Shown here: piece by piece, positions 1-651 of the stretch | How positions within the stretch are numbered: the first letter of the stretch is position 1 | Layout of the letters: each line of letters opens with the position of its first letter | Notes under the pieces: model-generated | Seen by the model: the letters and a program-made list of their open reading frames with translations, nothing else | Database searches by the model: none | What the model was told of the DNA's origin: nothing | Translations under genes and position numbers: made by a program | Assembly (NCBI GenBank): GCA_030673425.1 | Contig: DAOVJB010000050.1 | Location: 1 to 7,819, forward strand | DNA: 7,819 nucleotides | From: Elusimicrobiota bacterium | Lineage (GTDB): Bacteria > CAYTYR01 > UBA6262 > DAOVJB01 | Direction of reading: 5' to 3'

Positions 1-437
1 CCAATTCCATAGTAATGCCTTATAGCATTAACAATATCCTTTTCAGTGGCAATAACAGGTATCGGTTTAAGGTCAGTCAAAAAACGCAGATCATCCTGTG
101 TACGCACATCTAAAGGATCAGCCATAGCTACAGTAAGAGAATTCTTCTCTATTTTCAAGGGAAAAATTTTATATCGTGAGGCAAATTTAACAGGAACCTT
201 TCTAAGCACCTCGGAAGAAACTTCTATATTGGATATTTTTACATAGGGCAAACCTAATTGCTGAGCTAAACGGATTAAAAAATCTTCCTCCTGGGCATAG
301 CCTAATTTAATCAGAATATGTCCAATCCGTTGACGAGTTTTGCTCTGTTGCTGTAGCCCTTTATCCAACTGTTCCTGAGTAATTATACCTTCCCGGATTA
401 ATATCTGCCCAATAAGTTCCCTGTTTTCTTTAACCAT
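1..437 (-). CDS. PilB/GspE-family assembly ATPase, N-terminal part with MshEN c-di-GMP-binding domain (3' end cut by window)
   Basis: Translating the minus strand from the ATG at 437 gives 145 open codons to the window edge. The protein begins MVKENRELIGQIL and has no signal peptide, as expected for a cytoplasmic motor of a type IV pilus or type II secretion system. Residues 8-31 and 37-60 are two copies of the 24-residue MshEN motif (L/I-G-x2-L-x3-G-x6-L-x3-L-x2-Q), separated by the usual 5-residue spacer (SKTRQ). The second copy starts with the consensus Arg (R37); the first has Leu (L8) there, and L17 of copy two is Phe (F53). Residues 103-145 (VAMADPLDV through the final HYYGI) match the rest of the T2SSE N-terminal domain. 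The Walker A/B ATPase core would lie beyond the edge, so PilB, GspE and MshE cannot be told apart. A ribosome binding site, AAGGA at 446-450, sits 8 nt before the ATG. The gene has its own promoter and a riboswitch leader. Family call is secure; c-di-GMP binding is inferred. Confidence 0.9.
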   Translation of the reverse strand, partial: MVKENRELIGQILIREGIITQEQLDKGLQQQSKTRQRIGHILIKLGYAQEEDFLIRLAQQLGLPYVKISNIEVSSEVLRKVPVKFASRYKIFPLKIEKNSLTVAMADPLDVRTQDDLRFLTDLKPIPVIATEKDIVNAIRHYYGI

Positions 438-473
438 TTAATATATCCTTAGAAATATATTTATAAATATTTT

Positions 474-516
474 AAACAAAAAGCCAGTTGCCTTCTTAAA
501 CCTTCGGCAACTGGCT
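474..516 (-). terminator. Intrinsic terminator forming the riboswitch expression platform
   Basis: On the minus strand AGCCAGTTGCC (516-506) pairs perfectly over 11 bp with GGCAACTGGCT (492-482) around a 13-nt loop, and the stem runs into TTTTGTTT (481-474). This is a strong rho-independent terminator placed 37 nt before the start codon of the downstream ATPase gene. Its 5' arm is part of the riboswitch aptamer: it includes the end of the third helix, the TTGCC core and one base of the closing helix. Aptamer and terminator therefore exclude each other, which predicts read-through when c-di-GMP is bound and termination when it is not. Confidence 0.88.
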
Positions 517-586
517 ATCCCAATGATATCTCGGGACCCTATAGTTTTGCGTTCTCGCCTCACAGCGGATTTGCCTTTATCGAATC
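501..586 (-). ncRNA. Cyclic-di-GMP-I (GEMM-I) riboswitch aptamer
   Basis: Read on the minus strand, the leader carries the conserved GEMM-I core: GGCAAA (575-570), a hairpin with a GNRA loop (CGCT 567-564, GTGA 563-560, GGCG 559-556), ACGCAAA (552-546), the stretch AGGGT (540-536) and TTGCCGAA (510-503). A closing helix forms from TTCG (584-581) with CGAA (506-503), and the third helix from CTAT (544-541) with ATAG (518-515) plus CCC (535-533) with GGG (521-519). The GTGA loop fits the tetraloop that docks into the third helix. By my hand alignment to the Vibrio Vc2 aptamer, the G that contacts the ligand (G20) is G here (position 575), A47 is at 548 and C92 is at 507. G at the first of these is expected of c-di-GMP sensors rather than the cGAMP-sensing variant, which has A. 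It lies between a promoter and the MshEN ATPase gene, so it should control that gene. Helix limits are hand-drawn. Confidence 0.9.
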
Positions 587-622
587 TATACTAAATTATA
601 TACTAATATCCTCTTTGTTTTA

Positions 623-651
623 AACATAGCATAATTTTCGAATTCTGTCAA
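623..651 (-). promoter_or_regulatory. Sigma70-type promoter for the riboswitch and MshEN ATPase gene
   Basis: The minus strand shows a perfect TTGACA -35 box (651-646), a 17-bp spacer and a TATGTT -10 box (628-623; 4 of 6 consensus bases). Transcription would start near 616, about 30 nt before the aptamer, giving a leader of roughly 180 nt. Position and spacing fit a promoter that feeds the riboswitch. It separates this gene from the tlpA-containing operon upstream. Confidence 0.75.

Follow-up and report, generated by a model that had tools for sequence, protein, structure and literature searches.

Does a single second messenger, c-di-GMP, decide both whether a pilus or secretion motor is made and whether it works? 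The locus analysed here raises this question. The window spans the entire contig C190 (7819 bp); the genome to which it belongs comprises 1.32 Mb in 199 contigs and is 88% complete. Every gene identified within the window, including the riboswitch feature, lies on the minus strand. As a sequence-only reading of this DNA had claimed, a GEMM-I aptamer, a terminator and then a gene with tandem MshEN motifs are all present (Table 1). We think it likely that a transcriptional riboswitch of class c-di-GMP-I, turned ON by its ligand, governs an mRNA starting with the MshEN gene, most likely for a GspE/PilB-type ATPase with a c-di-GMP pocket of its own. The same reading had also described a sigma70-type promoter. 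A consensus match does exist 5' of the aptamer; however, promoter-like matches are not enriched across the whole window (21 against 25.8 in shuffles), so what argues for this candidate is its position.

Table 1. Elements of the window, and the tandem GEMM-I pairs of the four same-class genomes
Feature	Position	Strand	Basis
Candidate sigma70 promoter, TTGACA-N17-TATGTT, TG before -10	623..651	minus	consensus match
Alternative -10 hexamer TATAAT, about 10 nt 5' of the aptamer	595..600	minus	consensus match
GEMM-I (c-di-GMP-I) aptamer	502..584	minus	covariance models RF01051, RF03167
Intrinsic terminator hairpin, then U-run	482..516	minus	fold energy -20.4 kcal/mol
Shine-Dalgarno-like AAGGA	446..450	minus	read from letters
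MshEN gene, ATG at 437, 145 codons, then contig edge	3..437	minus	ORF + profiles
MshEN c-di-GMP motif 1, LIGQILIREGIITQEQLDKGLQQQ, residues 8-31	345..416	minus	
MshEN c-di-GMP motif 2, RIGHILIKLGYAQEEDFLIRLAQQ, residues 37-60	258..329	minus	
Tandem GEMM-I pairs (L163, L156, L154, L158)	G001:C60 32521+32311, G002:C8 20248+20033, G003:C132 4466+4248, G004:C24 15207+15429		

Performing covariance-model searches, we confirmed the class of the aptamer. The c-di-GMP-I model RF01051 matched with 57.7 bits (E 5.6e-11), exceeding its gathering score of 35. The top-ranked Rfam model was the variant RF03167 (c-di-GMP-I-GGC), with 52.9 bits (E 1.6e-10), which is below its gathering score of 59. The remaining Rfam matches to the window at E ≤ 1 were two overlapping ones of the same clan. 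We take G20, A47 and C92, in the numbering of the Vc2 structure, to be the c-di-GMP contact positions that decide ligand choice. The aptamer carries this canonical triad (G20 at 575, A47 at 548 and C92 at 507, minus strand), as do 70 of the 80 aligned GEMM-I. It is the lowest-scoring of the nine GEMM-I of the genome, and its P2 has one C-A mismatch. Its canonical secondary structure is not its minimum-energy fold; because the same holds for nearly all GEMM-I tested, fold energy is uninformative as a test of the aptamer.

The terminator hairpin with its U-run was unusually stable (z -4.5), and none of 200 shuffles reached the same stability. The aptamer's final 15 nt, which form the P3/P1 3' strand and include C92, double as the 5' arm of this terminator. 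Since these 15 nt are common to both structures, aptamer and terminator are mutually exclusive, and c-di-GMP is predicted to turn the gene ON. When c-di-GMP is scarce, the aptamer's 3' strand would pair into the terminator and transcription would halt. At high c-di-GMP, the ligand would pair with C92, close the aptamer and hold its 3' strand, so that the terminator is blocked and the gene transcribed. The same overlap was found by script for four other GEMM-I of the genome and by fold inspection for the one on contig C89, while three have a separate terminator downstream of the aptamer. As a control, overlap arose in 18 of 250 random windows.

Two other readings of the RNA were weighed. The first rank of RF03167 would suit an aptamer that binds another cyclic dinucleotide, either 3',3'-cGAMP or an unknown one. 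We consider this very improbable, as position 47 is A and not the distinguishing G of the RF03167 consensus, position 20 is G and not the A of 3',3'-cGAMP riboswitches (GEMM-Ib), and C92 is retained; the aptamer thus belongs to neither the GGC variant nor GEMM-Ib. Moreover, RF03167 ranks first for most GEMM-I of this genome despite their canonical triad. The sign of the switch could also be the opposite, given that the class I riboswitches of C. difficile are OFF switches (PMC11477304). We give an OFF switch very little credence here, because the 5' arm of the terminator is the aptamer's own 3' strand, as it is in the pilM ON switch of Geobacter metallireducens (PMC9262584), and a separate antiterminator is neither needed nor seen.

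We then turn from the predicted ON switch to the protein. The 145-residue product matched the MshEN profile PF05157 with 93.4 bits (cut-off 23.1) and the NCBIfam c-di-GMP_motif profile NF053729 over residues 9-60 with 53.5 bits (cut-off 38). The two tandem motifs and their 5-residue spacer are exactly as the sequence-only reading had them. Allowing Ile for Leu at position 2, motif 1 keeps 11 of 11 key positions and motif 2 keeps 8 of 11, departing from the consensus at Y47, A48 and F53. The retained key positions include G10, G39, L24, L28, L57, Q31 and Q60. Relatives in the PDB with c-di-GMP-binding MshEN domains are MshE (5htl) and PilF GSPII-B (8pdk). A worry had been raised that Leu in place of Arg at the first position of motif 1 abolishes binding. 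The accepted motif start has, however, been widened to (R/K/L)LG, with a hydrophobic residue at position 1 giving higher predicted affinity, and PilF GSPII-B, which carries Lys and Leu at these positions, binds c-di-GMP at 6 nM (PMC11731258). Leu at position 1 is therefore no objection, and the worry is removed.

The contig edge cuts the gene at codon 145, and Walker motifs or a T2SSE ATPase domain would lie past that edge. Searching the assembly for a contig that overlaps the end of the window, we found none; the sole near match was a paralog on contig C26. This paralog is full-length (571 aa), carries a T2SSE domain and is 77% identical to the window protein. Its GspE/PilB profile scores fall just below the equivalog cut-offs, and downstream of it come a GspF/PilC gene and then a pilin-like start. 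In a tree, the window protein joins the C26 PilB with support 0.98, together with an Omnitrophota PilB, and the best named relatives are mostly from Omnitrophota (42-48% identity). From the 77%-identical paralog, the window gene is probably the N-terminus of a GspE/PilB-type ATPase. A stretch of 36 identical nucleotides (positions 1-36 of the C26 locus, L017, and 415-450 of the window) spans both MshEN start codons, and contig C26 starts inside this stretch, 13 nt before the ATG. This suggests that C26 and the window gene are a tandem duplicate or a strain variant sharing a leader.

Two readings of the protein compete with a c-di-GMP-gated motor. It may be that the RNA layer alone works, with an MshEN pocket so degenerate that the protein is blind to c-di-GMP. 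Motif 2 does miss three consensus residues, and the one GSPII domain of PilF whose motif is degenerate fails to bind (PMC11731258). We find this unlikely, since motif 1 is intact, the seven positions named above are kept in the two motifs and the NCBIfam c-di-GMP_motif cut-off is passed. It is about equally doubtful that the gene encodes an MshEN protein that stands alone, some 150 residues long and acting as an adaptor or c-di-GMP buffer, with the motor as the next gene, perhaps the C26 paralog. Several Omnitrophota genomes have MshEN proteins of 148-166 aa directly 5' of a PilB gene, which speaks for this reading; the start of C26 within the shared 36 nt fits a tandem repeat, and the assembly search found no orphan ATPase fragment. 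The window protein nevertheless groups with the C26 PilB and not with the solo proteins, to which it is 35% identical, and no solo MshEN protein is listed in the four same-class genomes. We observed a recurrent Omnitrophota operon (L045:3831-5995, L050:3828-5996 and others) in which a solo MshEN gene (about 150 aa) precedes one or two complete genes for PilB-type ATPases. An apparent 1226-aa secretin-ATPase fusion at another locus (L043) was rejected as a scaffold-gap artefact, with a run of N before the ATG.

We return to the preferred reading, an ON switch before a receptor-bearing motor. The sequence-only reading had proposed that c-di-GMP sets both the amount of the motor and its activity. 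What stood of it is a GEMM-I with the canonical triad directly 5' of an MshEN gene, with an exclusive terminator. The joint action of the two layers, setting amount and activity, like the ATPase part and the binding of the ligand by RNA and protein, is what we infer. The messenger that permits synthesis would probably also gate or stabilise the protein through the MshEN pocket.

We checked whether GEMM-I precedes MshEN genes in other genomes. With GEMM-I loci drawn from 386 diverse relatives, no MshEN gene follows any of the 28 best loci that were newly examined. A genome-wide adjacency analysis of 34 MshEN-bearing genomes, with 105 GEMM-I and 138 MshEN genes, gave a single pair. Likewise, in the 80 nearest MshEN loci of GTDB genomes and about 30 more, GEMM-I was directly upstream in one. 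In both cases it was the same locus (L083), from Clostridiales bacterium 38-18, where GEMM-I heads pilB, pilT, pilC and pilin-like genes. The class II model gave no match in the window, the C26 contig, the 80 nearest MshEN loci or 29 further loci. The four other genomes of the same phylum that we examined have 3-4 GEMM-I each, none of them 5' of an MshEN gene.

The impression of a near-singleton was overturned when we examined relatives of Clostridiales bacterium 38-18. We searched 80 such relatives, whose listed relatedness is what places these loci in "Clostridia", and examined 50 MshEN-pilB loci. A c-di-GMP riboswitch lies upstream on the same strand in 29 of the 50, with 12 of class I and 17 of class II (nine of these 17 score under the Rfam gathering score, at E ≤ 1e-5). 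In 28 of the 29, no intervening ORF reaches 60 aa. G20 and A47 are present in all 12 clostridial class I aptamers. Overlap of terminator and aptamer was seen in 12/12 class I and 13/15 class II pilB leaders tested, against the 18/250 of random windows. The pairing is therefore recurrent in Clostridia; it is not conserved in the class of the window, yet it is not unique. As the clostridial genomes are related, their counts are not independent events. From the two unrelated RNA classes together with the lineage of the window, we therefore infer at least three recruitments. On balance, and with only a modest lean, we favour convergence as the origin of dual c-di-GMP control over pilus or secretion motors: classes I and II would have been recruited separately as ON switches directly before receptor-bearing motors, two or more times in Clostridia and once in the window's phylum.

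Riboswitch control of pilus operons is already known from C. difficile and Geobacter. The G. metallireducens pilM riboswitch is a GEMM-Ib that takes cGAMP as ligand and acts as a transcriptional ON switch, its aptamer and terminator excluding each other (PMC9262584). It resembles the window in its GEMM-I fold and exclusive ON layout and controls type IV pilus genes, but it differs in its ligand and in heading a pilus operon that begins with pilM; an MshEN motor has not been described as its target. In C. difficile, the class II riboswitch Cdi-2-4 precedes pilA1, and transcription reads through into the pilB operon (PMC6366702, citing Bordeleau 2015; PMC11477304). Cdi-2-4 is likewise a c-di-GMP ON riboswitch and raises pilus genes including pilB, but its class II aptamer stands before a pilin gene and c-di-GMP binding by PilB is outside the control described.

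At the protein level, V. cholerae MshE, with its MshEN domain (PMC5013675), and T. thermophilus PilF GSPII-B (PMC11731258) bind c-di-GMP. The window protein shares with both the two tandem motifs, each about 24 residues long and separated by 5 residues, and with PilF GSPII-B the Leu at motif position 1. In contrast, no riboswitch is reported for the mshE and pilF genes, and motif 2 of the window protein is less canonical than theirs. M. xanthus PilB is another MshEN motor that binds c-di-GMP. So is C. perfringens PilB2 (Hendrick 2017, cited in PMC11656802), a clostridial MshEN motor for which no riboswitch layer is described there. In the open-access literature that our search covered, we found no paper with both layers on one motor gene.

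Each layer is thus known singly, and the most valuable result is the clostridial recurrence with two riboswitch classes. That both layers are repeatedly placed on one gene, by way of two RNA classes that are unrelated, suggests that selection has favoured a coherent double gate, in which the motor would be neither made nor active unless c-di-GMP is high. The affinities of RNA aptamers and of MshEN domains are not the same, so combining them could make the pilus response sharper or later. In addition to the window, about 28 loci from Clostridia offer a ready set for asking why one signal is read twice.

The genome of the window has eight GEMM-I besides the one described above, and it encodes GGDEF domains and an HD-GYP protein. 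Among the GEMM-I with an identifiable downstream gene (some targets are truncated), the targets are secreted GH113 glycosidases with PKD and CHU_C domains, a PorP/SprF-OmpA protein, other exported proteins and a PAS-GAF-HD-GYP protein. The last is encoded on contig C89 (L033:2940-4746, minus strand), directly 3' of a terminator-overlapping GEMM-I, and its catalytic motif HD...HHExxDGxGYP is intact. A GEMM-I on the gene of an HD-GYP enzyme is a possible negative feedback on c-di-GMP. Another GEMM-I, on contig C184 (L034:140-217, minus strand), precedes a gene for a small exported protein and has G20 and A47 with U92, which could favour an adenine-containing ligand, for example, cGAMP.

In same-class genomes, a GEMM-I lies just 3' of a shortened MshEN-ATPase gene and 5' of an exported-protein gene (L155, L159, L160 and L162). 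All four same-class genomes also have two GEMM-I in tandem, about 215 nt apart; in the one case tested (L158), a subtilase gene follows. At the ligand-contact position 20, the 5' copy carries C (AAAACGCAAA) and the 3' copy the canonical G. The triad of the 5' copy fits neither Rfam variant (UAU, GGC), and this copy may be a new specificity variant, or the pair may be a two-input switch.
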